In this document: positions 3,942 through 19,186 of the stretch, piece by piece
Layout: every line of letters begins with the position of its first letter
Position numbering within the stretch: the first letter of the stretch is position 1
Virus record (IMG/VR): IMGVR_UViG_3300021373_001597
Span: 1-37,885 of that record
DNA: 37,885 bases
Origin: a virus
Strand: one strand, 5' to 3'
Position numbers and translations under genes: made by a program
The notes under the pieces: generated by a model
What the model was told of the DNA's origin: nothing
What the model saw: only the letters and a program-made list of their open reading frames with translations
Database searches by the model: none

Positions 3942-4196
3942 ATGAAATTATTAAAATTTAGTGCATCATGGTGTGAGCCCTGCAAAGTGCTTACTAGAAC
4001 TATAGAAGGTATGGACTTATGGCTTCCAGTAGAAAACTTAGATATTGATGAATATCAAGCATTAGCAAGAACGTATGGAGTTCGTGGAGTACCTACAATG
4101 ATATTAGTGGATGCAACAGGAAAAGAGTGTAGACGCTTTAGTGGCGTAAAAAGCAAGGGCGAAATAGACGCCTGGTTGGGAGATATATACGAGTGA
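3942..4196 (+). CDS. Small thioredoxin
   Basis: An 84-residue thioredoxin-fold protein with the redox motif WCEPC (Cys11, Cys14) and the cis-proline loop GVPTMI, both needed for the fold and for disulfide exchange. It sits between nrdA and nrdB and overlaps nrdB by 4 bases, so its likely job is to re-reduce the NrdA C-terminal cysteine pair. The active site is CEPC rather than the usual CGPC, which probably shifts redox potential or partner choice. The ATG at 3942 is preferred over GTG-type starts further up because it follows GAGGGG at the end of nrdA. It could be called a glutaredoxin-like protein, but the length and WCxPC context fit thioredoxin better. Confidence 0.88.
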   Translation: MKLLKFSASWCEPCKVLTRTIEGMDLWLPVENLDIDEYQALARTYGVRGVPTMILVDATGKECRRFSGVKSKGEIDAWLGDIYE

Positions 4197-5152
4197 GTTT
4201 ACTAGATGAAAGAGAATATTATAAACCTTTTAATTACCCTTGGGCTTTTGAGCATTATAAATCTCAACAGCATATGCATTGGTTGCCTGACGAAGTCAAC
4301 CTTGCTGACGATTTAAAAGACTTTAGGGAAAAGTTGAGTCCAGGCAACAAAGCTTTGCTTACTCAAATATTTAGATTCTTTACACAGGCTGATGTAGATG
4401 TGTGTTGTGGATATGCTAAACACTACCTGCCTACTTTTAAGCAGCCTGAAGTAAGAATGATGTTAAGTGCCTTTGCAGCTATGGAGGCAGTACATCAAGA
4501 AGCATATTCTTTACTATTGGAAACTTTAGGTTTTCCAGAAGAAGAATATCAGGAGTTTATGAAGCATAAAGCAATGATGGATAAGCACGAGCACCTAAGT
4601 GACTTTGGTATGGGCAGTAGTATGGATATAGCAAAGACCATGGCTATTTACTCTGGATTTACTGAAGGAGTACAACTATTTAGTAGCTTTGCTATCTTAC
4701 TTAACTTTCCTCGACATAATCTAATGAAAGGTATGGGACAAATTGTTACTTGGTCTATTCGAGACGAAAGCCTTCACGTAGAAGGCATGTCCAAGCTATT
4801 TCGTACTTTTATCCAAGAAAATCCAGAATTATGGAATGATGAACTAAAGTATGAAATCTATTGTGCTGCAGAAAGAACTGTAGAGCTAGAAGATGCTTTT
4901 ATTGATTTGTGCTTTGAAGGGGCTGATGTACCCGACTTAACCCCTGAGGAAGTAAAAGAGTATATTCGTTACATTGCGGATAGACGCTTATTGGGTCTAG
5001 GAATGAAGAAGATTTTTGGTAGTAACGATAATCCTCTACCTTGGCTAGATTATATGTTAAATGCAGTTGAACACGCAAACTTTTTTGAGAATCGTGCAAC
5101 TGAATACTCACGAGCTAGTACCACAGGTAACTGGCAAGACATTTTTAAATAG
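4193..5152 (+). CDS. nrdB: Class I ribonucleoside-diphosphate reductase, beta subunit
   Basis: The radical-generating partner of NrdA, 319 residues. All metal ligands are at canonical spacing: Asp67 (FTQADVDV), Glu98 and His101 (MEAVHQEAY), Glu158 (FTEGVQLF), and Glu192 and His195 (RDESLHVEG). The radical tyrosine is Tyr105, in the position of E. coli Tyr122. This indicates an oxygen-dependent class I enzyme with a tyrosyl radical and a di-iron or iron/manganese site; sequence alone does not fix the metal. The GTG start at 4193 overlaps the thioredoxin stop (GTGA), so translation is likely coupled. The C-terminal tail that docks on NrdA is present. Confidence 0.96.
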   Translation: MSLLDEREYYKPFNYPWAFEHYKSQQHMHWLPDEVNLADDLKDFREKLSPGNKALLTQIFRFFTQADVDVCCGYAKHYLPTFKQPEVRMMLSAFAAMEAVHQEAYSLLLETLGFPEEEYQEFMKHKAMMDKHEHLSDFGMGSSMDIAKTMAIYSGFTEGVQLFSSFAILLNFPRHNLMKGMGQIVTWSIRDESLHVEGMSKLFRTFIQENPELWNDELKYEIYCAAERTVELEDAFIDLCFEGADVPDLTPEEVKEYIRYIADRRLLGLGMKKIFGSNDNPLPWLDYMLNAVEHANFFENRATEYSRASTTGNWQDIFK

Positions 5153-5160
5153 GAATAGAT

Positions 5161-5409
5161 ATGACCAGACATGAAACACCGCAAGACAAGAACTATGTTA
5201 CATTTGAGGGCAAGGACTATGATATTGAATCTCTAACAGAAGAGCAGCAGTATTTAGTACATCAAATGAAGATACTACAAGAAGAGTATTTAGAGCTGCA
5301 AGCAGCGATGGATAGAAGCAAAGTAGGATTAGAAGCTTTTTCTACAATGTTTAGAAATAATCTGCTTAAAGAACAACAAAGCAAAGAAGAAAGTGAAGAA
5401 GGGGCGTAA
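5161..5409 (+). CDS. Small acidic protein of unknown function (DUF6447-like in appearance)
   Basis: An 82-residue protein, last gene of the plus-strand operon. It opens with a short beta hairpin (YVTFEGKDYDIESL) and continues as a charged helix rich in Glu, Gln and Leu, ending in a Lys/Glu tail. This layout resembles small phage proteins of the DUF6447 type (a hairpin plus a coiled coil), but I can only say it looks alike. It has AGGAA upstream and lies 8 bases after nrdB. Its stop codon is inside the loop of the terminator hairpin. No catalytic motif is seen. Confidence 0.7.
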   Translation: MTRHETPQDKNYVTFEGKDYDIESLTEEQQYLVHQMKILQEEYLELQAAMDRSKVGLEAFSTMFRNNLLKEQQSKEESEEGA

Positions 5410-5420
5410 GCCCCTTTTTT
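5399..5420 (+). terminator. Rho-independent terminator of the replication operon, probably bidirectional
   Basis: A perfect 7-base-pair stem AAGGGGC / GCCCCTT (5399-5405 and 5410-5416) with loop GTAA, followed by T residues to 5420. It ends plus-strand transcription after the last small gene, whose stop codon is in the loop. The minus-strand late genes end at 5419, so the same hairpin faces them. On that strand it is followed by TTCTTC, a poorer but possible U-tract. Confidence 0.9.
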
Positions 5421-5946
5421 ATTGAAGAGGCATATATATTCTAGTATACCTATTATTTTTAACTCCTGTTACTTTTTTATAGCTTGTTTCTTTTTCTGTC
5501 GGAGCAGGAACATCTCCACTACTAAACACTGTTTCATTCTTAGTCCCTTCTGCTACAGTCCACAATAGACCTGAAAACCCGTTATCAGATAAAAAAGAAC
5601 AAAAGGAATCAGTATTTTCCTGGGTATAGATATAAGACCTAGACCCCTTATAGTTTCTACCCCATAAAGTATATTTATCTACATATACATTTGCTTTGTC
5701 TCTTATAGCCACTCCCATACAACATATTCTTCCCGTACTATCCCTTCCAGCGAACCCAAAACTATTATCAGCAGCCAAAGTTCTATTCCACGCTTTCAAC
5801 AAGTAAAAAGCTCTATCTTGATCCGTATTTATATCACTAGGCCAGTATACTACTTTATTTTTAACGATACTGGAGTAGCTATCGTTTAATAGTACTTGCC
5901 AAGTTTTTAGTGGTATTTCTGTAATTCTTTCATATGTTATTGACAT
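5419..5946 (-). CDS. Unknown protein, last gene of the fibre/desaturase cassette
   Basis: A 175-residue protein I do not recognise. It is rich in aromatic residues and mixed alpha/beta in appearance, with no signal peptide or membrane helix. A central stretch (SFGFAGRDSTG, then CMGVAIRDKANVYVDK) followed by a helix and a strand GLLWTVAEG is loosely reminiscent of acetyltransferase folds, but the acetyl-CoA loop is not clear, so I do not assign it. It starts with a good ribosome site (AGGAG), overlaps the desaturase by 17 bases, and ends against the terminator. The conserved operon position suggests a role linked to the tail fibre or the desaturase. Confidence 0.75.
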   Translation of the reverse strand: MSITYERITEIPLKTWQVLLNDSYSSIVKNKVVYWPSDINTDQDRAFYLLKAWNRTLAADNSFGFAGRDSTGRICCMGVAIRDKANVYVDKYTLWGRNYKGSRSYIYTQENTDSFCSFLSDNGFSGLLWTVAEGTKNETVFSSGDVPAPTEKETSYKKVTGVKNNRYTRIYMPLQ

Positions 5947-6586
5947 TTTTACTCCTAAAAAGTTTTTCTATTATAAAGCCAGATATATCATACTTATTTA
6001 ATCTAACTTGCTTGCAATTTTCGTGGTGTACATCATGAAAACCCTCGCCAGCAGAAAGTAGGTTTATCCACAAGTCTGTTCGTGGCTTCTTATCCTTATG
6101 GCCTCTAGCATTGAATATACCATAACCAAAGAACGATAAAGCTGTGGGTGTAAGCATGAAGGCAACAAAAAATTCTATACTAATCAGTACTGATACTACA
6201 GAGAATACTAAGTACAAGTATCTCCAGTATTTATGAAAAAACATAACTCTAGGATTTCTTACTAAGTCTCTCATAAATACTCTATTTTTTATATCCCACA
6301 AGTCTTTTACATTCCACTCATTAAATAAGACTTTCCAAAATCCTATATAATCAGGAGAGTGTGGATCTTTTTCAGTATCAGCATGAACATGGTGTAGTCT
6401 GTGTGCTGTGACCCAAACCAACGGAGATCTAGCGCCTGCTAGAGTTACTAGTAGTAGGGAGATGATTTCAAAGCTTGACCCTGCCTTAAATTGTCTATGG
6501 GAAAAATATCTGTGTAATCCCATTGAGTGACCAAATATTGCAATCACTTGATACCATAATATACCTAATAGTATGGCTGTAATCAT
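5930..6586 (-). CDS. Membrane fatty-acid desaturase (delta-9 type)
   Basis: A 218-residue integral membrane di-iron enzyme that introduces a double bond into acyl chains. All nine histidine ligands of the stearoyl-CoA desaturase type are present: His25 and His30 (HRYFSH), His62, His65 and His66 (HRLHH), His163 with Asn159 (NARGH), and His184, His187 and His188 (HDVHH). The 32-residue spacing from His30 to His62 equals that in mammalian SCD1. Hydrophobic helices lie around residues 2-20, 38-50 and 122-155. It is shorter than usual host enzymes and lacks the first upstream membrane hairpin and a C-terminal domain. It overlaps the gene before it (ATGA) and the gene after it. The substrate (acyl-CoA, acyl-ACP or lipid) is not known. 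It needs an electron donor, which must come from the host. Confidence 0.92.
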   Translation of the reverse strand: MITAILLGILWYQVIAIFGHSMGLHRYFSHRQFKAGSSFEIISLLLVTLAGARSPLVWVTAHRLHHVHADTEKDPHSPDYIGFWKVLFNEWNVKDLWDIKNRVFMRDLVRNPRVMFFHKYWRYLYLVFSVVSVLISIEFFVAFMLTPTALSFFGYGIFNARGHKDKKPRTDLWINLLSAGEGFHDVHHENCKQVRLNKYDISGFIIEKLFRSKNVNNI

Positions 6587-6963
6587 TCTCTAAATGTCTC
6601 GATTATTGTTGTTTTCCATTTTTCATCGTTTGCTTCTTTATCTAGAGCATTTGTGGAAGATACATCGTATGCACTTAAAACCGTTAAAAGAGTATCTCTT
6701 CTTATATCATACTCTTCGGAACAACAAGTCTGTGCTACAGCCCTAAGCTTTTCTTCTGTGTCATCTCTAGTTTTTATCTGCATAATACCATATAATAAAT
6801 GCTTAACTTCGAAATCGTCAATTGCTTGAGCAGGAGTAATAGTATCTTCATTGTTTCTTCCTTCACAAAAGCTAACTGCTTCTGCACAGGGAGCAAGAGC
6901 TTTAAGGTTTTCTACCCTAGTAACTATAGCATTTTTACCGTCTGAAGGCTCTACCCTACTCAT
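6583..6963 (-). CDS. Unknown acidic protein in the fibre cassette
   Basis: A 126-residue, acidic, mostly helical protein with five cysteines (PCAEAVSFCEG and QTCCSEEY plus flanks) and no known motif. I chose the ATG at 6963, which overlaps the upstream stop (TAATG) and follows GGAGAG at a 7-base distance; a GTG at 6978 is also in frame but has no ribosome site. It lies between the lectin-like fibre gene and the desaturase and is coupled to both. Small helical proteins next to phage fibres are often fibre assembly helpers, so a chaperone is one guess; nothing in the sequence proves it. Confidence 0.78.
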   Translation of the reverse strand: MSRVEPSDGKNAIVTRVENLKALAPCAEAVSFCEGRNNEDTITPAQAIDDFEVKHLLYGIMQIKTRDDTEEKLRAVAQTCCSEEYDIRRDTLLTVLSAYDVSSTNALDKEANDEKWKTTIIETFRE

Positions 6964-7889
6964 TATGATACTCTCCACTTACCCATTAAATGTCCTATAA
7001 CTGTCTTTATTTCTTGTTCTGATAGTATTCGATCGTATTCTATTAATTCCATAATATGACCCTTATAAGGAGATTGTGTGTTGAAGGCTAAGCGATTATT
7101 AGAGTTATTTGAAGCAACAGATGGATCTGCTGCGCCCCCTAAATAGTGCTTTGCAGCAAAGTCAGTAATTTTATCTTTTGTCAGCCCATCAGCAGCATCA
7201 GTTCCTGAAAATATATCCGTTCTAGCAGCTACTGCCTGCGTACCTTCGTTTGGAGAAATAGCATCTTCATTGTTAAAAAATAACTTAAATACACAATCCG
7301 CGTCAGCTTGCTGATGGTTTTGTTGATGACAAACTATAAAATCAATATCAGAAGTACCTATTGACTTTTCTGTCCAAGCGCTGCTAGAGTCAAGAGCGCT
7401 CCAACTACCGCTCTTGCCCCATAAACTAGATTGCTTGTTCGTAGTCCACCAAAAATCCGAACCACTTCCCCCGATTTGAATACCACTAGCACCTGAGGTT
7501 ACTGATTTAAACCTAAAAAGACTACCATCTACACAACCATCAAAAAATTGTGCAGAGCCCTTCCTTATAGAGTAGAAAGTAGTGGTCTGAAACTTATCCC
7601 AAATAGAAGCATCAGTTGCAAACTTAAGATCATATACTTCCCCTTGTGACCCGAAATTAATACTAGTAAGACCAGCATTTGAAGTGGATATAGTAGGTGA
7701 TTCGGTGGATGAGCCAGAGTTTGTCCCATGATAATTATTGCCAGATTTATCATTCCAAGCAGAGACATATGTAGTACCTGCTAGCGTGGTAGAAGTTATA
7801 GTACTAGTATCTGAGGCATCATACCATCTGTAGACATCAACAAAGTCACTAGGATTAAACACGCTTGCAACAACGCCTGCACTCATCAT
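6963..7889 (-). CDS. Concanavalin/LamG-like lectin tail protein
   Basis: A 308-residue protein made essentially of one concanavalin A-like jelly-roll. The N-terminal signature is VYRWYDASDTSTIT followed by VSAWNDKSGNNYHGT. The C-terminal signature is GHIMELIEYDRILSEQE followed by a helix and GKWRVS. Both are typical of LamG-like domains in phage fibres and marine surface proteins, which bind sugars. It follows the tail fibre gene with a TAATG overlap, so it is likely a receptor-binding tip or an accessory fibre subunit acting on host surface glycans. Two adjacent ATG codons are possible starts. The sugar specificity is not visible. Confidence 0.82.
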   Translation of the reverse strand: MMSAGVVASVFNPSDFVDVYRWYDASDTSTITSTTLAGTTYVSAWNDKSGNNYHGTNSGSSTESPTISTSNAGLTSINFGSQGEVYDLKFATDASIWDKFQTTTFYSIRKGSAQFFDGCVDGSLFRFKSVTSGASGIQIGGSGSDFWWTTNKQSSLWGKSGSWSALDSSSAWTEKSIGTSDIDFIVCHQQNHQQADADCVFKLFFNNEDAISPNEGTQAVAARTDIFSGTDAADGLTKDKITDFAAKHYLGGAADPSVASNNSNNRLAFNTQSPYKGHIMELIEYDRILSEQEIKTVIGHLMGKWRVS

Positions 7890-9016
7890 TAGCTTATACC
7901 ACCACCATAAATAAGATAGTTTGGAACTGAAGCAGAGTTTGTTACACTACCATCAGTGATACAAATTATCTCAGCTGTACCGCCTGCTGCGATTACTCTA
8001 TTTACACTATTTGAGGTTGATACTGCACCACCAGTTAAGAATCGTACATATTGAGCAGTACTAGAACCATCAACATCTATTGTTAGTGCTCCTGTACCGG
8101 CATTTATAATTACCCAGGATTTGCCTGCATCAGCAGCCACTGCAGCAGGGAGATCTATCTCTCCTGTACCACCAGTATAAATTATCTTCTTACCTGTATA
8201 TGTAGCAAATTCTGTGGTGGTTATAGAAGTATCTGTCACATAGTTAGCAATTGTTTGTGACCCTGTATAAGCAGCAGCATTTACAGTGCCGCTGATTGCT
8301 ATATTATTACTTAAAGAGATAGTACCGTTTGTATTAATAAATTGATTATTAAAAGAACCTGTTGAGGAATAGTTATTAGAATCCCCTATAAAGAATTTTC
8401 CTTCATCTAAGTTAGGAGTAGCTGCGGTTCGTCCGGCCCCCGCAACCATGATAGACCCACTAGATGCATGCACTCTTTCAACCTTACCGATATTTTGAAT
8501 AAGGTTACTTTCTCCAGACGGTTTAAGATTTGTTAATGCACCTGCAGTAGTACTACTTATATAGAGTACATCTCCAATTTCCCAATTTTCAGCACCGCCT
8601 GTTGTATTACCATGTGCAAATGTGCCAAAAGAAATAACTTCAAGATTAGCATTATTATTAACAGTTGAATTAGCTAGTCCAAAGGCGGGCATTGTGGTTG
8701 CAGAGTTTGCTCGGGCCTTACTTACTACAGGTTTTTGACCACTAACACCAGAGATATAAACCACATCCCCTTTTGTCAAATTTTCCCCTGCCTTAGCTTG
8801 AAACCTTACAGCACCTCTTAGGTCTCCAATAAACTCATCAGCAGTTACACTACTAAAAGTAGGACTGTCTCCAGTGCCAAGAGCTTGAGGAAGAGCAATA
8901 GCCTGATTATTAACTTCTACAGTAGTAGTGGGGTTAGTTAAGCTGACTGCAATATCATTTGCAGAAGACACACTAACCTCTGTATTTACTGGAGCTAAAG
9001 AAACACTTATACTCAT
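7889..9016 (-). CDS. Tail fibre protein
   Basis: A 375-residue, Ser/Thr/Asn/Gly-rich beta protein. After a short N-terminal attachment segment it has ALGTGDSPTFSSVTADEF, a repeat common in tail fibres, and a domain (about 70-180) with the paired phrases KGDVVYISG and IGDVLYISS that recurs in phage fibres. The C-terminal 130 residues form a beta-rich, alanine/glycine-rich region (GTGEIDLPAA, GAGTGALTIDVDG) like trimeric fibre needles. It starts by ATGA overlap with the small protein before it. Likely role: the side or tip fibre that contacts the cell. No peptidase or chaperone-release motif is clear at its end. Confidence 0.82.
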   Translation of the reverse strand: MSISVSLAPVNTEVSVSSANDIAVSLTNPTTTVEVNNQAIALPQALGTGDSPTFSSVTADEFIGDLRGAVRFQAKAGENLTKGDVVYISGVSGQKPVVSKARANSATTMPAFGLANSTVNNNANLEVISFGTFAHGNTTGGAENWEIGDVLYISSTTAGALTNLKPSGESNLIQNIGKVERVHASSGSIMVAGAGRTAATPNLDEGKFFIGDSNNYSSTGSFNNQFINTNGTISLSNNIAISGTVNAAAYTGSQTIANYVTDTSITTTEFATYTGKKIIYTGGTGEIDLPAAVAADAGKSWVIINAGTGALTIDVDGSSTAQYVRFLTGGAVSTSNSVNRVIAAGGTAEIICITDGSVTNSASVPNYLIYGGGIS

Positions 9017-9345
9017 CTTGTAATTCCTCGAATTACTTGAACTTTACCTTGAATTAAACGAGTTACAGCAGCATCGTTTGCAGTGTATATTTCTAAATCA
9101 TATACATACTCTCCTTCATCTAAGGTTTTGGTTACACTATTTCCCATGGTAAGAGTGATTACTCCACCTGAGTCATTGTGTGTCCCCGTAAATTCAGCGG
9201 ATACATCTGCCTCTTTAGTTTTTCGCACGTCTGCACGAACAAAATAGTTGGTTAAGTTATATGCCGAACCGTTTTGTGTAAGTGTCAAGGTCATAGAAAA
9301 GTCTGCTCCTTGATCTATAGTTAAGTTGTGATTACCTGCTGCCAT
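9013..9345 (-). CDS. Small beta-rich baseplate/fibre attachment protein
   Basis: A 110-residue beta-sandwich-like protein (TIDQGADFSMTLTLTQNG, then GGVITLTMGN and GEYVYDLEIY). This pattern, an opening Gln-Gly-Ala/Asp-Phe strand and a closing Gly-Glu-Tyr-x-Tyr-Asp-Leu strand, is common in small phage baseplate or upper-fibre proteins such as BppU-type N-terminal domains. It is the first gene after a consensus promoter, with GGAGAT at 9351-9356 as ribosome site, and is coupled by ATGA to the fibre gene. Likely role: linking the fibre to the tail tip. Function is inferred from fold appearance and position. Confidence 0.75.
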   Translation of the reverse strand: MAAGNHNLTIDQGADFSMTLTLTQNGSAYNLTNYFVRADVRKTKEADVSAEFTGTHNDSGGVITLTMGNSVTKTLDEGEYVYDLEIYTANDAAVTRLIQGKVQVIRGITR

Positions 9346-9403: not shown

Positions 9404-12400
9404 TTAAACGTTGTCGGGGTTAAAGTTAAGGGGCAATGGTACAGTAACTTCTGTACCCGAGACACATCTACCTCTAATTAGTTTTGTGTCTGTCGCATTA
9501 ACCTTTTCCAGTAAATAAGTATCATCACTATGTTCCTGGGCAACAATATCTACCAAACCATTTGTTTTTAGAGTTATATCACTTATTCTAAATAATTTTT
9601 CTGTGAAATTAAACCTAGCGTAGCTTATTTTTATGATACTACCTGCTTTAAGCATAGCTCCTTTAGGTGCCATAGTAAACCCTATAATTAAACTCAATCT
9701 AGACATATCTAAATATTGTTTTACATTTATACGAGCATTGAAGTAATTACTAATATATGGAGATGCATAAGAACCTTTTTTAGGTATATTATTATCTTGC
9801 TCTAAGTACGTAGAATTAAAGAAAGAAATTTGTCTACCTTCAAATTGCATAGAGGGGTCGGCTACTGTTGCATCTATGCTATTGAATGATGTTTTAACTC
9901 CCCTGTCATCTATAGTAATTTTTCCTATTATATCCTCTTCTGATATTTTTGATACGTCTGAGGTTGGTACGCCTGTAAGCGCAGGTTGAGCAGTGCTACC
10001 TGTAACATCTTTATCTTGTCGTCTCTTTACATCAAGCGAATACTTACCTGAAGTAAAAGTTAGAGTGCCATTAAACTGACTAAGAATATCAAAAGTATTC
10101 TCAAAAAGAGTATTTCCTGTATCTATTAAACAGTTTAATTGGTGTCTAGAAGCATACCTTTGGTCTTGCTCGCTCCATCCTACGTATCTCCAATATTTTA
10201 CATGATCTGCATCGTACAAAGAGTAACCACTATTTTGAAAAGTAGAGGAATTTGATTCAAAAGATTTGACTATAGGATTTCCATCTACACTTATTAAGTT
10301 GTTATCAACAGATTCTGAGCTAAACTGTACGTAGTAGTGAGTATTTCCTGTATCTTCAGCCGCTGTATTTTCTACGTCTAGATTTGCTCCACCGGGAAAA
10401 GCTAGTACTATACTGTTTGCAGATTCATCAATACTTTCTATTGTAACTATTCTACTTACACCACCAGTATCAGTGAGTGTAGCGTACATTCCTACTTCTA
10501 ACTGGCCATCTATTTCGCCCATCGCAAAAGTACTCCCTGAAGCTTTAGTTGCATTTTCTGCAAAGTGAGCATGTACTATATCTGTTCCTATATTTAGTCG
10601 TATAGGTATACTGGCAGAGTGTCTAGTTGATGTTGTATCATTAGGATTAGTAGCAGATCTATACAATCTTAATCCATCTGCAGTTAGTTTATTGAATGCT
10701 TCAGTCTCTGCTGCAGTATACGTACTTGATAATCCGCCTGTTGTACCAACTAGATGCACGTTGTTATTTATATAAACTAGATCTTCATTGAAATCCTTCC
10801 ATGTATTATGCTTTTTACCTAAGCTACCGATAACTTCGTCAAAAGTTATCTCATAAAAGCCTTTTAGATTCCCTTGTTTAGTTGTTGCTAATCTAAAACT
10901 TACTTTTTCTACGGTGCCCTGGAATAAAAGTTTGGCTCCTGCACTTTCTGAAGCAGACAAAGTATTTCCCCCAAAAAAGTATTTATAAGTATCACCAACA
11001 ACAGGAGGCCTAGCTCTAAGAATAACAGTAGAGTTTATCGGTAAACTAGCATTTGCAGATAGTTCTATATCTCTTTGATCTGCTGCTCCTGTTCTATCTG
11101 GATTAGTCACTGTTATTTCCGTAGATATATTATTATGAAGTACTAGGTCTCCTACACGTATTGGATCTCCCTCGTTATTTTTCAGAGTAAGTGTACTAGA
11201 GTTATTAGTAGTAGCTGCCACAGTAGCTAGTGTGTCTGCTGGCATGCACACTGTTACCTGAGATCGTGCATCACACAGTCTTGCTGCTTCTATAAAAGAA
11301 TCAAAATCTATATCAGAATTTTGTTCGTCTACCTTTCTTTGACCGGTTTCAGAATCAAACGTAAAGTTTAACTTTAAACCTTTTCCATATTTAGTATCGG
11401 TTAAGTAGTCAAGTAATTGCATAGCAGGGTTATTGCTTACCCGCAAATCTTTTATATTCTCATCAAAAAACTTAAACTGAGTATGATTATCTTGGATAAA
11501 CGTATTATCCATATCTATAATGCCAAATCCTGTAGTGAAGTCGTATGCAAACAGTTTTGCAGTATGCAGTGATTTTGCTATACCTCCTTGATTGTATATA
11601 CCTTTTTCAGGCTCTGAGAACCCCTCTAGTTCATCATTTCTGAAAGATACGTTCACAAGAGAGTCCGAGGTAGCCTTACTAGGGTGGGCTTTTCTATCAA
11701 ATTCTACGATATCTGTCCATTCTAGGTTTAAGCCTTCACCGTCTAACATCTGTACTTTAGCTGCATCATTAGCTTTTTTATACCCTTCCATAGCTTTACA
11801 GCCTAGTAATACATGACTATGAGTAATGAATGTAACTTCTGTATCATTAGCTACTGTTATATCTTTGGTCAGCTTTATAGTATTAGTAGATGAATCACTG
11901 AGTGTGCCCACCGCAGTTACATATATAATCTCCTCCGGAGGCATCCCGTCATATAAAAACTGATCGCCTACTTTAGGGTAAGTTCTTCCAGTGCTTAATA
12001 GATTTGCAGTAGTATCTATGTTAAAGAATTCATCTACACCTTCTCCATTTACTGCTCCATTAATTAAAGCCGTTACCACACTATCCTCAGTATTATGTCG
12101 GTACACAAAAGGATAGGAAGCACTATCCCACATTTCTGGAGTTATATCTAAAACGGAATCCACCACCATTGCATATAACTCATCATAGGTTCCGGCAACA
12201 TTATACATAGTAAGTTGAGCAAGTTGAGCTCTATAAGGTAGCTCTCCCTGTAATTTAAGGTTTCTACACTGATCCCACACCACTTTAGCTCTAAGATTAT
12301 CTAGTGGCGCTGTATCTATAGTTCCAGTTACTCCGAACGGCCTAAAAAAGCTTTCTTCTGCTACTCCAAAAAAGAATTTATTTCTATTTATGTCCGTAGG

Positions 12401-15400
12401 GTGAGAATAGTTTAATAAGTCTTCGTTAAGGTTCAAACCTATTACAGAACTAGATACGTGGGTAGAAAAAGATACGTCCTGCCCTTTACTAGTCCAACCG
12501 AATGGACCATTAGATATTTGTGTACTTTGTCCCGAGCCCTGAACTAATTGAGTGCTGGATGCACTAGGAGTTATTAAATTAGATGCCAGAATCAAAGGAT
12601 TACTAGACCCATCTGTTGTTATAGTATAAGAATCTACCTCTCCTTTTTCAAAATTTGAATCCAGACTAATTCTATATGCTCCAGCTGCACCAGAAAAGCT
12701 ATCCTCTCTAGATATATCTGTAATTGTTACTCCGGAAATAGAGGGTGGAGTAGTGTGCAAATCCTCTCCATCTCCGCTTCTAGTAAGACTGGTGGCTGTT
12801 TCATCATATTCATGAAACAAATTACCTGCAACAAAAATTACACTATTTCCATCTAATTGGAAAGAACCCGAATAGTTAATCGGTAAACTAGTGTCTGCAT
12901 CTGTTACAGGGGCAAAATCAAAAGTTCTTAAGAAAGGAGCATTTGCATTAGTAGTTGCTGCATCATCAGGAGCAGTTAGCTGAGTCATAACACTAGTTTT
13001 AGAAGTAGCACTTCGTGGCTGTCCTAGTTGTATAGTACCGCTAGCTCCAAAACTCGTATATGTTGCTAAAGCATTAGTGCCTTCAGTGTATGCAGTTACA
13101 AATGGGTCTTTTCTAGCTATGGGTCTTTGCGTACAGTTATAATCTGCATTCTCTATTACCAAATATCTATTTGCTCCACCTGATGCTACGATAGCCAATC
13201 CTGCCATGTTGCTTCTATCAGTGCCTTGAGTAACTCCTGTCCTACTAAAGAATTTTTTGGAAGCAGTAGTGCTATTTGTAAGAATTACTGCGGTACCATC
13301 ATTGTCTCTAGCAGTTGTTGCTAGTACGGGCATAGGAATAGGACTTCCAACTACTGCATTGTATGTATTTCCAGGAACAATAGATAGACCATGTAGTCTG
13401 GTGCTGTTTGTTGCACTTGACAGGCCTCCTACTTCCGCAGTTATATTAGTGTCAAAATTGGAGTGAATTCCATAAGTTCTATTAGTATAGTCATGGGCAA
13501 ACTCGTAACGACTGTCTGCATAGTGGTCTCTATTGTAGGGCGGCATACTGTAGTCTTCGTCTCTGAATCTAGTCGTGCCCTGCGAGTTTCTTCTCCAACC
13601 TAGTTCTGAATCTCCAGAAGCTATCTCATTAGTGTTATTAGCATTATATGGATATCCAGTCATTAGACAGTTACCATTAATATCTATTTCAGGTCTTCCG
13701 AAACTTATACTATTTCCACCAGATGTGTTTTCAAAATCTAATAAATAAGTCCTTATAGTATATTCTAAGTTCTTAGAAGGATTATCATTGTGCTCTACTA
13801 AACAATATAAAAACGTAGGATTATTAGCCTGACCTCCAGTATTACCGTTAAGATCCCTGTCGTCAGCATAGCTGTACGTACATATACCTACAGTACCGGT
13901 AGGCACAGAAATGGCTTTTGTAAACATTCTTCCAGTGTCCATATTATAGAAAAATACATGACTACCAGAAACTTTTTCACTTATCCAATTACCTGTTGTG
14001 GTGTTAGTTGAGCCCGCATTTAATGCAGTATTTATAGAAGTATCTAAAGTATTTATGGCTATATGCTCTCTATGTTTGTTAAGCATACACATGTAGTTTA
14101 CTCCGTTTATAACATGGTGAGATATGTCATAAACATTATCAGGATTTAACGCATTAAGACGGCCACCAATTTTATAAACACCATCATAAGAGTGGTATCT
14201 ATCATCCTGTAGAGCGGTTAAAGCTCCCTGAGTATGGAAGTCTCCATCTGTTTCACTAGTATATCTATACATATAATTTATGTCATTGTATGGAAGTTGA
14301 TATCTAGTATGGTTTTTAAAGTTGTAACCTATGTCTACTGTTACACCGCTGTCAATGTCAGGAATTATAAGGAATCTATCTAGCAGCACTTGATTAGTGG
14401 TATTGTCCATCCTGATTATCGTGGCACCATGAGACGACCCCAAAAAGCTATTTGTCAAGTATAGAGGTTTTGCCAAAACTGCTTTTGCTCCAGTACTAGT
14501 TGTTCCCGAGTAGCTACTAGAATCTATATAGTTACCTGCATCATCTTTAATCCTAAAACTAGTTGATAAGACATCAGCTACAGTAAAAGGAGTATCATAC
14601 AGTCTTTCGTTATTTACTGCATTTAACTCTGAAATATCTCCTCCTTCTATTACAATTCTATCTCCATCTTTAAAATTATGTCCCTCTGCCATAAAGATAA
14701 AAGTTTGAGATCCCTTAGTAATACCAGTAATAACAGGTTGATATATTTGATTTATTGCTCTGGCTTTGTTATACATATGATCGCCAGTATAGTAGCTTTT
14801 AGTATCGCTAGCTAGAAAGTGAATACTCATACCCTTTCTAATACCAGTTAAATTATTAAGAGTAACTACTGAACCTCCAGAAGTTATGCCTATAGATCCA
14901 AAACTTGAAGCCCCCACATATCTACGTCTATTATTGTACGCAGTTATAGTTTTTTGATATACATCATAAGAAGCACTAAGTGTAGGAATATAAGGTTTTA
15001 TATCTTTTGAAGCGTCTCTATTACCATTACTAAGAGTATAGGCATATATCATTCCATTTCCGGAAAAGTTTTTGAATAAAAGAGTAGAATCTAAACCTCT
15101 ATAGTTATCTACACCAGGTTTAGTCTCGTCATCATTTACGAAACATCTTAGCTCGTTAATATTTGATAAAGTAGTTCTCGAGTCGCTTTGAAATCCTGGG
15201 AGATATACATCATCTCCTTCGTCAGGCAAAGAGGGTTTTCCTATCGTGGTAAACCAATCTGCAACCCATAAAGTTGTACCGTCCGTAGTCATACCTTTTG
15301 GAAGCTCATTATCTTGAACAAAAGTATGCACAGTATCAAAGTAGCAATGTAATGCATTATCAAATGCAGTCATAGTTTGTATTTTATCTGGTATTGCTCC

Positions 15401-18400
15401 ATTTTGAGATTGTGTAATAAACTGTTCCGCAAATACTATAGAATATTTTCCTGCCCAAGGGTTTAAAGTTTGATCGTTATTCTCATTATCAATATCATCA
15501 TACTCGGAACCAAAAAATGTAGTAGTTTGATGTTTTCTATCGTTAGATTGACGATGATATCGAGCCTTATGCGTGCTAGAATAGTCCTCAGTAGTATTAT
15601 CGTACGTACTGGTATTTTCAACATATTTAGCGCCTACAAGTAAGTCTGATTTTTTATATTTATAGATTGCAGGTACTAGCATATCTCCATAGCGTAATCC
15701 TGGATTAAGAAGATCGGAAGAGCCAGCACCATTATACTTAGATTGATACGATCCCCTACCTGCGGCTCTAACGGAATATACAGAATCATGCAAGCCATCA
15801 TTCTCTGTTGCTGCTATGTGCTTAGGAGAATATATGTATACGTAAGTTCCATCGCCTGATATATTAGTTACCAGGCGTTTTTTCTGTGCAACCATTCTTG
15901 AATATCTTGGTGTACCTGGATTGGTTGACGTTCCCGCTATGCCTGTATTTGAACCTGATAATTCATCCTCATAGGCAAACATTACCTGTCTTTGTACAAG
16001 CTGTTTTGTGGACAACTCATATACAGAAAGAAAAGTTTCGTGTACAACATACGCATAGCTACCGTCTGTGTATATATCCTCTGCATGTACATGTCCCGCA
16101 ATAATAGTCTGGCTAGAATCTAAACTATTATTATTTGTATTATATACATAAATTATTGACCCATTTTTGAAAGAATCCCCCGCAGCATCTACAGTAAGAT
16201 TATTAGAGAAGTGCTTAACATGAACTTCTTTTTGTGCTGTAGAATCAAAATCACTTGCTACTATATTAGTTAGTATAAGCTGTTGTGCTCCACCACCTAT
16301 TGATACTGAATCACCTATTTTGTAGCTATTAATATTTGATGTATCAAGAACACCAAAGCTGTTGTCATAGTTATAGCACTCTAAAAACTTGCCTTTTACT
16401 ATATATTTATGTATAGCTTGGTTTGCGTCTCCGGATTCCATTCTTTTAAAAGATACAATATATGCAGTATCTAGTAGCCTATGATTAGTGCTCCAGTAAG
16501 GAATGGGCGAGTTAGAATAGTAATCATGCTGTATCTTAAAGCCAAGGTCCGGGGTACCCTCATCTATATCCGTAATTACAACAGGGGTTTGATTCTGTGC
16601 ACGTAATGCGTCTGCAACTTTAATGCCACGAATAGCGGCAATAGCTCCTCCTATTAGCCTTTGTGTTTGTGAATATTGCTCAAAATTTAATTGCAATCGT
16701 ATCGAATTATTTGAGCTAATACCAGAAAGAGTAGGAAGCTTTTTTCCTTTAAAACCTATAATGCTTTTTTTAACTATGGAACTACCGGAGCTAAAAAAGC
16801 TACGGCTGGGTCCTTTGCTTTTATATGTTTTTTGTATCTTGAAGCCATAAACGGGAGTCCGAACGTATGCAACAGAATCAGATACAATGTCTATTACCTT
16901 AAAAGTACTCCCAACCGTAGAAGAGACTGACGAATCTGCTTTTACAACCTCATACAGCTTTTGCTGTCTAAGTGCAGAAAGACCAGTACCGCTTATTTTA
17001 TAAGGTTTTTGACCTCCTGTATTTTCTATGCTGTTAGCTATTGACGATAATATTTGATTGCATTCTTGATACTTCTGTCCTGCATGAAACATTATTTGTT
17101 CTTTCGAAGTATTAATACTAACTCCATGCTCATGAGTTATAGGGGTTTCTACTGTTTTAAAAATATGTAAATTTGTTCCTGTAGTACCCGCATTACCTAA
17201 CGAAATAGTGTTTGCACCATGCAGAGCATCTTGAAACGTATTATGTAAGTAAAACTCATTGGCATCAAAATATCTAATAAAGTATTGTCCCTTGTGAACT
17301 AGTCCACTAATATCACTTCCTTGAGTTTTATTCAAGTATTCAACAGGAACACCTGTTTTAAGTCCATGATCAGAACTAGTGTTTATTCTATTACTTGAAG
17401 GAGTACCATCGTGCCCCAGCTCTATATGGCCCATCCATCTTTCTAGAAGCTTTCTAGTGCCAACTATCCCTAACATTCTTACATTAGTTGTATTTATAGT
17501 ATTACCAGTAGCCGTATAATCTAAATCTTGAACAGTGCCAGTCTGTCCAGAATTACCTACATTATATTGCCCTATAGCGGTTCTGAATGTTAAACTTGCA
17601 TTATCCTCTAGAGTTATTGGGAACTCGAGTTCTATATCTGTCTGGCTATGAACCTTTGTTATTATATTACCTCGTACTTGTCCCTCAGTATCTAACTCTA
17701 ATCCTGCAACTAGAGTACCTTCTACATTATCTACTGTAAATCTTCGTACTTTATCTACAGACCCGCTATCAACTGAGCAAGTAACAATCGTTCTGTTATA
17801 AAAGGGAGAGCCCGATAAAACATCTCCTCTATCTGCTCTGCCCACACATGTTCTAGATTCAGTAGCTAAATTAGTATTACGAGTAACAAAATCAGGAAAG
17901 TCTCTACAAACAGAGGGCTCATCTTCCACTACAATATCTAATATGGAGCTTATTGGTCCTTCACACAATACTTGCGCACTAACAAATTTAGTATGTGTTA
18001 CGCCTGTAGATACTGTCCCCAAAGGAAGGTTTAAAACGTCTGCAAATACATTGATAGGGTCTTCTAGCATCTGCACTCCATATACTAGTGGTATGTGTGA
18101 GGAGTTTAAATTAAAAGCAAGTTTTTGTTCTCTTGCAGTGTATTCTATCCATTTTCTAGTCTTTGATTTGGTGCTTTTATACCACTTTCCTTTTACTTTT
18201 GTTTCTTGTTTCTCGATACCAGTTCTATATTTTGCTGCAACATTGAAAGCTTTATCTGCATGAATAAAACCTAAATCTTGTTCATACTCTGGTCTCTTCA
18301 AGGATTCAAAATCAGAAGTAAGTTGATTGGACTTTAAAGCTCTATGGGTATCATCCGAAGTTGTACGACCATTAACGGTTGTAAATGCTGACCAATGAGA

Positions 18401-19186
18401 AGATACCTGCCAAGTCATTGTAGAGGACTTCAGAGGATTTTCTGTAAGCTTGCCGTTTGCAATAAGACCTTTAAATATTAAGTAAGTACCGGCCTCTGAA
18501 AAACCACCATCTTCTGTAGGCACATATACTCTTCTAAATACACTTACATCTCTATTTAAATACTCAGTAAAAGATGTAGATATATCTCCAGCCGTAAAAG
18601 TCACAATTTCATCTGAGCTAAGAGATGCTGTATAGGAATAGTTAGAGTTAGACTCAGTACTAAGTGTTGCTTCGGAAACAGAAGTAGCTTGAATCGTTTT
18701 ATTGTTGTTTGTAAAAACATCTATTCTTACAGAAACTAAGCTATTTATCCCTGTGTTTGACTGAAAAGTAACTATGTCTCCTTCTTGAAACCCAGAATCT
18801 TTCCAACTATGTGTAGAAGTTACGGTTGAGCTTGTAAAGGTAAAAGTACCTGTTAAAGACGTGCCTACAGCTGTAGCATCAAAAGTCAGGGTTACATTAG
18901 TATTCTGTAGCATCTCTTTTTCTTGAATGTCTGACATTTTAAGAAACTTATTTTGTAAATAAGTCTGAGCTCCATTAAAAGAGCCCCTTATATCTTTAGA
19001 TCCATCATCAAATATCTCAGGGTTAGACGAAGTAGTAAAATAGCCGTAAGAAGTAGCATCTTTATTGCCTGTACTTTGAGAAGGTCTCTCAAATTTTATT
19101 AGGTGCACAATTTTTAGCTCTGGGCTATTTATTAGAGCATCTTTAATTCCTTGATCATTTATTCCTAAGTTTCTGTAAAATGACAT
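9404..19186 (-). CDS. Giant tail tip / host-specificity protein (J-like, 3260 residues)
   Basis: The largest gene here. Residues ~1-290 look like a lambda L/DUF2163-type tail protein, ending in SSHWSAFTTVNGR. Residues ~345-430 match the start of tip attachment protein J (TAREQKLAFN, IPLVYGVQML, AQVLCEGPIS). J-type sequence returns after ~2300: NPAMQLLDYLTDTKYGKGL near 2586, FDSFIEAARLCDARSQ near 2626, and the end of the tip core at ~3100-3230. Between ~450 and ~2300 lies a long beta-rich insertion with propeller-like strands, such as DGSYAYVVHETFLSVYEL (~1035), DGTYVYIYS (~1112) and GMTTDGTTLWVADW (~1297) followed by GMIYAYTLSNG. Lambda J is 1132 residues, so this is a fused and greatly enlarged tip. 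It should form the tail end and contact the receptor. No frameshift is seen. Confidence 0.85.
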   Translation of the reverse strand: MSFYRNLGINDQGIKDALINSPELKIVHLIKFERPSQSTGNKDATSYGYFTTSSNPEIFDDGSKDIRGSFNGAQTYLQNKFLKMSDIQEKEMLQNTNVTLTFDATAVGTSLTGTFTFTSSTVTSTHSWKDSGFQEGDIVTFQSNTGINSLVSVRIDVFTNNNKTIQATSVSEATLSTESNSNYSYTASLSSDEIVTFTAGDISTSFTEYLNRDVSVFRRVYVPTEDGGFSEAGTYLIFKGLIANGKLTENPLKSSTMTWQVSSHWSAFTTVNGRTTSDDTHRALKSNQLTSDFESLKRPEYEQDLGFIHADKAFNVAAKYRTGIEKQETKVKGKWYKSTKSKTRKWIEYTAREQKLAFNLNSSHIPLVYGVQMLEDPINVFADVLNLPLGTVSTGVTHTKFVSAQVLCEGPISSILDIVVEDEPSVCRDFPDFVTRNTNLATESRTCVGRADRGDVLSGSPFYNRTIVTCSVDSGSVDKVRRFTVDNVEGTLVAGLELDTEGQVRGNIITKVHSQTDIELEFPITLEDNASLTFRTAIGQYNVGNSGQTGTVQDLDYTATGNTINTTNVRMLGIVGTRKLLERWMGHIELGHDGTPSSNRINTSSDHGLKTGVPVEYLNKTQGSDISGLVHKGQYFIRYFDANEFYLHNTFQDALHGANTISLGNAGTTGTNLHIFKTVETPITHEHGVSINTSKEQIMFHAGQKYQECNQILSSIANSIENTGGQKPYKISGTGLSALRQQKLYEVVKADSSVSSTVGSTFKVIDIVSDSVAYVRTPVYGFKIQKTYKSKGPSRSFFSSGSSIVKKSIIGFKGKKLPTLSGISSNNSIRLQLNFEQYSQTQRLIGGAIAAIRGIKVADALRAQNQTPVVITDIDEGTPDLGFKIQHDYYSNSPIPYWSTNHRLLDTAYIVSFKRMESGDANQAIHKYIVKGKFLECYNYDNSFGVLDTSNINSYKIGDSVSIGGGAQQLILTNIVASDFDSTAQKEVHVKHFSNNLTVDAAGDSFKNGSIIYVYNTNNNSLDSSQTIIAGHVHAEDIYTDGSYAYVVHETFLSVYELSTKQLVQRQVMFAYEDELSGSNTGIAGTSTNPGTPRYSRMVAQKKRLVTNISGDGTYVYIYSPKHIAATENDGLHDSVYSVRAAGRGSYQSKYNGAGSSDLLNPGLRYGDMLVPAIYKYKKSDLLVGAKYVENTSTYDNTTEDYSSTHKARYHRQSNDRKHQTTTFFGSEYDDIDNENNDQTLNPWAGKYSIVFAEQFITQSQNGAIPDKIQTMTAFDNALHCYFDTVHTFVQDNELPKGMTTDGTTLWVADWFTTIGKPSLPDEGDDVYLPGFQSDSRTTLSNINELRCFVNDDETKPGVDNYRGLDSTLLFKNFSGNGMIYAYTLSNGNRDASKDIKPYIPTLSASYDVYQKTITAYNNRRRYVGASSFGSIGITSGGSVVTLNNLTGIRKGMSIHFLASDTKSYYTGDHMYNKARAINQIYQPVITGITKGSQTFIFMAEGHNFKDGDRIVIEGGDISELNAVNNERLYDTPFTVADVLSTSFRIKDDAGNYIDSSSYSGTTSTGAKAVLAKPLYLTNSFLGSSHGATIIRMDNTTNQVLLDRFLIIPDIDSGVTVDIGYNFKNHTRYQLPYNDINYMYRYTSETDGDFHTQGALTALQDDRYHSYDGVYKIGGRLNALNPDNVYDISHHVINGVNYMCMLNKHREHIAINTLDTSINTALNAGSTNTTTGNWISEKVSGSHVFFYNMDTGRMFTKAISVPTGTVGICTYSYADDRDLNGNTGGQANNPTFLYCLVEHNDNPSKNLEYTIRTYLLDFENTSGGNSISFGRPEIDINGNCLMTGYPYNANNTNEIASGDSELGWRRNSQGTTRFRDEDYSMPPYNRDHYADSRYEFAHDYTNRTYGIHSNFDTNITAEVGGLSSATNSTRLHGLSIVPGNTYNAVVGSPIPMPVLATTARDNDGTAVILTNSTTASKKFFSRTGVTQGTDRSNMAGLAIVASGGANRYLVIENADYNCTQRPIARKDPFVTAYTEGTNALATYTSFGASGTIQLGQPRSATSKTSVMTQLTAPDDAATTNANAPFLRTFDFAPVTDADTSLPINYSGSFQLDGNSVIFVAGNLFHEYDETATSLTRSGDGEDLHTTPPSISGVTITDISREDSFSGAAGAYRISLDSNFEKGEVDSYTITTDGSSNPLILASNLITPSASSTQLVQGSGQSTQISNGPFGWTSKGQDVSFSTHVSSSVIGLNLNEDLLNYSHPTDINRNKFFFGVAEESFFRPFGVTGTIDTAPLDNLRAKVVWDQCRNLKLQGELPYRAQLAQLTMYNVAGTYDELYAMVVDSVLDITPEMWDSASYPFVYRHNTEDSVVTALINGAVNGEGVDEFFNIDTTANLLSTGRTYPKVGDQFLYDGMPPEEIIYVTAVGTLSDSSTNTIKLTKDITVANDTEVTFITHSHVLLGCKAMEGYKKANDAAKVQMLDGEGLNLEWTDIVEFDRKAHPSKATSDSLVNVSFRNDELEGFSEPEKGIYNQGGIAKSLHTAKLFAYDFTTGFGIIDMDNTFIQDNHTQFKFFDENIKDLRVSNNPAMQLLDYLTDTKYGKGLKLNFTFDSETGQRKVDEQNSDIDFDSFIEAARLCDARSQVTVCMPADTLATVAATTNNSSTLTLKNNEGDPIRVGDLVLHNNISTEITVTNPDRTGAADQRDIELSANASLPINSTVILRARPPVVGDTYKYFFGGNTLSASESAGAKLLFQGTVEKVSFRLATTKQGNLKGFYEITFDEVIGSLGKKHNTWKDFNEDLVYINNNVHLVGTTGGLSSTYTAAETEAFNKLTADGLRLYRSATNPNDTTSTRHSASIPIRLNIGTDIVHAHFAENATKASGSTFAMGEIDGQLEVGMYATLTDTGGVSRIVTIESIDESANSIVLAFPGGANLDVENTAAEDTGNTHYYVQFSSESVDNNLISVDGNPIVKSFESNSSTFQNSGYSLYDADHVKYWRYVGWSEQDQRYASRHQLNCLIDTGNTLFENTFDILSQFNGTLTFTSGKYSLDVKRRQDKDVTGSTAQPALTGVPTSDVSKISEEDIIGKITIDDRGVKTSFNSIDATVADPSMQFEGRQISFFNSTYLEQDNNIPKKGSYASPYISNYFNARINVKQYLDMSRLSLIIGFTMAPKGAMLKAGSIIKISYARFNFTEKLFRISDITLKTNGLVDIVAQEHSDDTYLLEKVNATDTKLIRGRCVSGTEVTVPLPLNFNPDNV

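Follow-up and report, generated by a model that had tools for sequence, protein, structure and literature searches.

The window analysed here, meaning the whole stretch of 37,885 nucleotides, is a 38-kb virus contig whose portal and terminase are ~40% and ~50% identical, respectively, to those of T5-like siphophages. Terminase, portal and distal tail genes are encoded on the same record as the desaturase gene, which identifies it as a bona fide phage genome. As listed in Table 1, the gene belongs to an operon on the minus strand that extends from 9345 to 5419 and encodes, in this order, an LtfC-like protein, a 375-aa fibre protein, a 308-aa structural protein, a 131-aa protein, the desaturase and a 175-aa protein. 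The operon is preceded by the perfect promoter reported in the preliminary description; two such sequences occur in the 37.9 kb versus 0.02 expected. A convergent operon lies on the opposite side, separated from the fibre operon by a hairpin with a T run behind it on the plus strand. A single tail ORF of 3260 aa (9404-19186), with no match in PHROG, separates the distal tail gene from the fibre operon.

Table 1. Genes and regulatory features in and around the fibre operon, with the second consensus promoter of the window
Feature	Position	Strand	Length	Remarks
Ribonucleotide reductase small subunit (RNR2)	4193..5152	plus		penultimate gene of the convergent operon; served to find the phage's relatives
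G+C-rich hairpin between the two convergent operons	5399..5416			terminator-like for the minus strand
Last protein of the operon	5419..5946	minus	175 aa	distant relative of the 198-aa protein found at the same place in L166
Putative membrane fatty-acyl desaturase, SCD/delta-9 type, compact phage clade	5930..6586	minus	218 aa	
Small protein upstream of the desaturase	6583..6963	minus	131 aa in the ORF list (GTG at 6978)	ATG at 6963
Virion structural protein	6963..7889	minus	308 aa	PHROG 10356, its one named-family match
Tail-fibre-like protein	7889..9016	minus	375 aa	S-N03 tail fibre (3e-16) and other annotated tail fibres
LtfC-like L-shaped tail fibre assembly protein, opens the operon	9013..9345	minus	110 aa	phrog_3304 (2e-19), phrog_1084 (2.7e-25)
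Perfect sigma-70 consensus TTGACA-N17-TATAAT before the fibre operon	9393-9365	minus		consensus match
Other perfect sigma-70 consensus, just before the head/portal operon	36891-36863	minus		consensus match

The presence of fibre genes in the desaturase operon, as had been described, was confirmed by the match of the 110-aa product to phrog_3304 and that of the 375-aa product to annotated tail fibres; the 110-aa product also matches PF23926, below the cut-off. The lectin identity proposed for the 308-aa protein was not shown, since no Pfam or PDB match was found and its only named family is a PHROG of virion structural proteins; the label is equally unsupported by phage records. Translational coupling, also part of the preliminary description, is evident on both sides of the desaturase. 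The TGA of the 131-aa gene overlaps its ATG (ATGA at 6586-6583), and its 3' end is overlapped by 17 nt by the start of the 175-aa gene, with an AGGAG at 5956-5952. The junctions farther upstream are of the ATGA/TAATG type, with overlaps throughout the operon. The AlphaFold2 model of the 175-aa protein was unusable (pLDDT 35).

The preliminary description had placed the desaturase gene correctly without indicating its strand; the gene is read on the minus strand, from 6586 to 5930. Its 218-aa product matches the Pfam family PF00487 (FA_desaturase) at 1.2e-8, with 35.5 bits against a curated cut-off of 29.7, and its PDB matches are structures of the stearoyl-CoA desaturase SCD1 (4ymk, 7e-12; 4zyo, 1e-11). 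With the DesA equivalog model NF049918 of NCBIfam, it scored 40.9 bits over residues 5-91, below the curated cut-off of 400 bits. The nine histidines and the asparagine of delta-9 desaturases that had been noted are all present in the ORF. In the PDB alignment, H25/H30, H62/H65/H66, N159/H163 and H184/H187/H188 align with the HxxxxH, HxxHH, NxxxH and HxxHH motifs of SCD1, positions that are metal ligands in that enzyme. Residue 185, within box 3, varies among the aligned sequences (K, D, N, R). Just before box 2, the phage protein has T60-A61 where SCD1 has R-D, so that acyl-CoA need not be the substrate. The R-D pair was rejected as a marker for acyl-CoA; prokaryotic homologues also vary at this site, which is therefore uninformative on the substrate.

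The AlphaFold2 model of the desaturase, built from 36 phage sequences, has a mean pLDDT of 92.5 and long helices at residues 2-29, 37-49/55-67, 112-135 and 137-161. This predicted model displays the SCD1 fold with its transmembrane helices, and SCD1 structures were its best fold matches (TM 0.81, Z 19.2 over 207-209 residues). Every other structural match reached a Z of at most 10, including the Orf2971/Ycf2 motor subunits in the lower rows (Z 9-10).

A profile scan of IMG/VR identified 407 relatives of the desaturase, of which 80 were kept. In the maximum-likelihood tree, the window gene falls inside a compact clade of 47 rows (support 100/93) that is set apart from other cellular homologues and consists of phage relatives together with four sequences from MAG contigs; deeper relations in the tree are unsure given its long branches. 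Members of the clade have 207-225 aa. The products examined from the scan measure 206-223 aa, with the exceptions of one fragment at a contig end and an unrelated Acinetobacter gene. The Acinetobacter "phage" matches H2 and H3 were left out, as they resemble bacterial chromosome contigs. Among isolates, Pelagibacter phage Mosig is the only one with a clade member. The gene content of three of these MAG contigs is that of T4-like phage islands. The fourth, L246 (Bacteriovoracaceae, 118 kb), on which Terminase_6N was not found, may be cellular; the phage module could have its cellular home, or its origin, there. In this contig, the genes of two desaturases (254 and 225 aa) overlap and are followed by a gene for a PLP enzyme (L246:4195-6462). 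Across a cellular sample of ~1,080 genomes, obtained in three phylum/class draws, nearly all desaturases lie outside the compact clade, and a gap from 121 to ~194 bits separates the scores of cellular proteins and the phage clade, the Bacteriovoracaceae MAG contig excepted. These ~1,080 genomes lend no support to a recent capture from a host, which is usual for cargo genes though not a requirement, as no other near-scoring cellular member was found in them.

The metal site is strongly conserved within this family. When the phage relatives of the desaturase were clustered at 95% identity, the ten ligand positions were invariant in 43/43 groups, or in 42/43 for those of the last box, as one member lacks box 3. 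In 45 cellular homologues these residues are conserved as well, the asparagine in 41 of them. Between close pairs of phage relatives, dN/dS was ~0.03-0.25 (Nei-Gojobori), indicating purifying selection; these values concern the relatives, as the sole close neighbour of the window gene is an identical copy in L002, and distant pairs, near saturation, were left out. Desaturase activity is likely, because the ligands are invariant in relatives and dN/dS is low between close pairs. Together with the shared promoter and overlapping genes, the sequence lends good support to the earlier proposal of a probably functional enzyme that would be expressed with the fibre genes. The clade member that lacks the third histidine box (L083:10001-10642) is probably a broken copy, and a second partial desaturase-like match is located ~2.3 kb further along the same record.

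Relatives of the phage itself were found through RNR2, with 80 loci at 87-97% identity. The desaturase had no match in these 80 loci, an absence that is informative for the handful that reach the fibre operon, since most of them stop short of it. The contigs that reach it (L166, L176, L179, L194, L211-L213, L217 and L220) contain variable fibre genes in the interval between the reductase and LtfC, and L194 also contains other genes. These non-fibre genes (L194:11234-14569) provide another case of cargo in this slot. In L166 (RNR2 94% identical), no desaturase separates the fibre gene from the gene for a 198-aa protein homologous to the 175-aa one (pairwise E 6e-6). The desaturase is thus optional and inserted where gene content varies: the nearest comparable T5-like relative, L166, contains the fibre and downstream genes but not the desaturase. 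A search for relatives with the LtfC gene returned a single match, and the portal-based search returned many contigs, none of which was used for the placement of the desaturase.

In the phages that carry members of the compact clade, the genes around the desaturase were compared with the expectation if its position among the genes of each locus were random. A PF05118 hydroxylase adjoins the desaturase in 22 of 44 groups (5.4 expected), a TauD oxygenase is located within three genes in 25 (7.6 expected), and a PLP enzyme adjoins it in 11 (1.1 expected). The associated probabilities are optimistic, because the null assumes independent groups and shared ancestry violates this assumption; the excess is still large. 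The PLP enzyme (cluster 4; L076:3972-4790 and 33 other proteins) has ~270 aa, a fold-type-I-like sequence and an SFSK-type lysine motif, with a weak Aminotran_1_2 match in one member and no Pfam match in another. Some relatives also encode a partner in clusters 7/57, for which "acyltransferase-like" is a guess from sequence, with no Pfam match. The 175-aa protein of the window was considered as its counterpart and rejected, as hhalign found no similarity. In the literature searched, a partial collection, no such neighbour statistics for phage desaturases were found.

The distance from the desaturase to LtfC within the same loci (44 groups) was not shorter than under random placement. Among whole records, the two genes are ~1.7-9 kb apart in six and ~67 kb and ~44 kb apart in two, the larger separation occurring in a 157-kb record; LtfC was not found in ten records, several of which are fragments. 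The position next to fibre genes anticipated in the preliminary description is thus shared by many relatives and not by those with the two large separations. The functional link to adhesion that it had suggested is unsupported: the enriched partners are PF05118, TauD and PLP genes, and LtfC is no nearer than random. In the sub-clade nearest the window, the desaturases of L003 and L009 are located beside tail genes, and those of L004, L011 and L017 have a Gly-rich gene on one side and the major capsid gene on the other. Because of these placements, the desaturase is better described as tied to late or structural islands, more loosely than to fibres.

Considering these observations, the window gene most probably encodes an active accessory acyl-desaturase that acts on host lipids and is carried as late-expressed cargo at the 3' end of the fibre operon. 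According to this proposal, a T5-like siphophage would have acquired a desaturase of a phage lineage by insertion at the 3' end of its tail-fibre operon, a slot that appears to tolerate variable genes. It would be transcribed late from the fibre promoter, as the gene content of the operon suggests, and translated by coupling. The product, a minimal four-helix membrane di-iron desaturase, would form a double bond in host-lipid acyl chains, and we infer a delta-9 regiochemistry. During assembly and release, the lipids of the host membrane or envelope may thereby gain fluidity or change in other ways, or the surface may be altered; the presumed benefit to the phage would be a change in membrane fluidity, a change in the envelope or lipid A, or an effect specific to the oxygenase cassette of its relatives. 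Cargo status is supported because the record is a bona fide phage genome and the gene is absent from close relatives that reach the fibre operon. On its own, the window's gene is an ordinary case of cargo, which can be explained without any physical or functional tie to the fibres.

One such tie would be a change in membrane fluidity specifically for adsorption, DNA entry or lysis, the last two named as possible roles in the preliminary description. The common promoter, the overlapping genes and the location of the desaturase in the same island as fibres in many relatives are consistent with it. We regard this reading as quite improbable, given that LtfC is no nearer than random within loci, that the two genes are tens of kb apart in two large records and that some relatives' desaturases adjoin head genes. 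Still more remote is another reaction of the same di-iron fold, such as small-molecule hydroxylation by AlkB- or Scs7-type enzymes. Both of these proteins appear lower in the structural list and the partners in relatives are oxygenases, but their Z scores (7.7 for AlkB and 3.8 for Scs7p) compare poorly with the 19 of SCD1, and the HxxxxH/HxxHH/NxxxH/HxxHH series with a GEG(F/Y)HxxHH box is the pattern of SCD-type desaturases.

A less unlikely alternative, to which we still give only a minor share of credence, is an envelope-modifying pathway in which the desaturase acts with the PF05118 hydroxylase, TauD, the PLP enzyme and sometimes the acyltransferase-like protein to alter acyl chains of lipid A or the envelope. 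The PF05118 family includes the lipid A hydroxylase LpxO. The pathway would change the receptor layer or exclude rival phages, and the window would have kept only the desaturase, beside the adhesion genes. The strong enrichment of the PF05118, TauD and PLP neighbours argues for it, as do the LtfC, fibre, radical SAM and other surface-type genes of the relatives' islands and the surface alteration suggested for such an island (PMC7029224). Against it, none of the partner genes is present within the window, a 38-kb fragment of a genome that may carry them elsewhere; the cluster-1 proteins, whose LpxO-type function would be conjectural, match PF05118 only; and TauD and PF05118 genes, common in islands of this kind, may use other substrates. 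A somewhat bolder version, which we consider rather doubtful, is that the compact desaturase, PF05118, TauD and PLP genes form a mobile phage cassette that rewrites host envelope lipids (e.g., lipid A acyl chains) in host-recognition islands. With none of the partners in the window, this version rests on neighbours in other phages. If it held, the surface would be altered during infection and competitors excluded, and the window would represent a stripped-down form in a fibre operon.

Accessory cargo remains our preferred reading for the window gene. It belongs to a compact clade that is widespread (~400 IMG/VR relatives), strongly conserved and nearly confined to phages in the genomes sampled, with oxygenase and PLP genes as its recurring company. 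These features raise the testable question of which acyl chain or envelope molecule is rewritten in infection and, further, why the desaturase is retained among late or structural genes.

Several known systems can be compared with this locus. Lipid desaturases have reportedly been described in marine cyanophages (Roitman et al. 2018, ISME J 12:343, as cited in PMC7300359 and PMC11480375); in tblastn, neither two clade members nor a longer desaturase encoded on a phage-like contig matched a cyanophage isolate. SCD1 (4ymk, 4zyo, 6wf2) and the phage desaturase have in common the fold, the ten metal-site residues and the motif order, whereas the phage protein is ~100 residues shorter, ~25% identical and without R-D before box 2. 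The closest isolate counterpart is Mosig_00080 of phage Mosig EXVC030M (QOI69044.1, putative FA_desaturase domain protein), which belongs to the same compact clade, is 42% identical over its full length and likewise has all the ligands. An LtfC-like gene lies 5.2 kb away from it, and annotated tail fibre genes are nearby. Mosig is a T4-like myophage and its gene is flanked by PF05118, PLP, FMN reductase and TauD genes, whereas the window gene is coupled directly within the fibre operon of a T5-like siphophage.

The vFADs of Arctic brine viruses are also phage-borne, with three His boxes and SCD (4ZYO) as best structural match, and a role in membrane fluidity was proposed for them (PMC7300359). 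They resemble the window gene by description in these three respects, and the available part of that report describes no fibre-operon link, whereas the window desaturase is in a fibre operon. A scaffold that probably belongs to a pelagiphage has likewise been reported to encode a fatty acid desaturase (PMC11480375). In pelagimyophages, the host recognition cluster is a variable island of fibres and enzyme genes for which surface alteration was proposed, and a stearoyl-CoA desaturase is listed for genomes of the freshwater group (PMC7029224). Phage desaturases in such fibre-bearing islands fit ordinary cargo behaviour too (PMC7029224). The pelagimyophage island contains enzyme genes along with its fibres, and the fibre operon of the window, in a T5-like siphophage, contains one recognisable enzyme gene. 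Phage desaturases are already established, and the window adds a member from a T5-like phage that is placed directly in the fibre operon.
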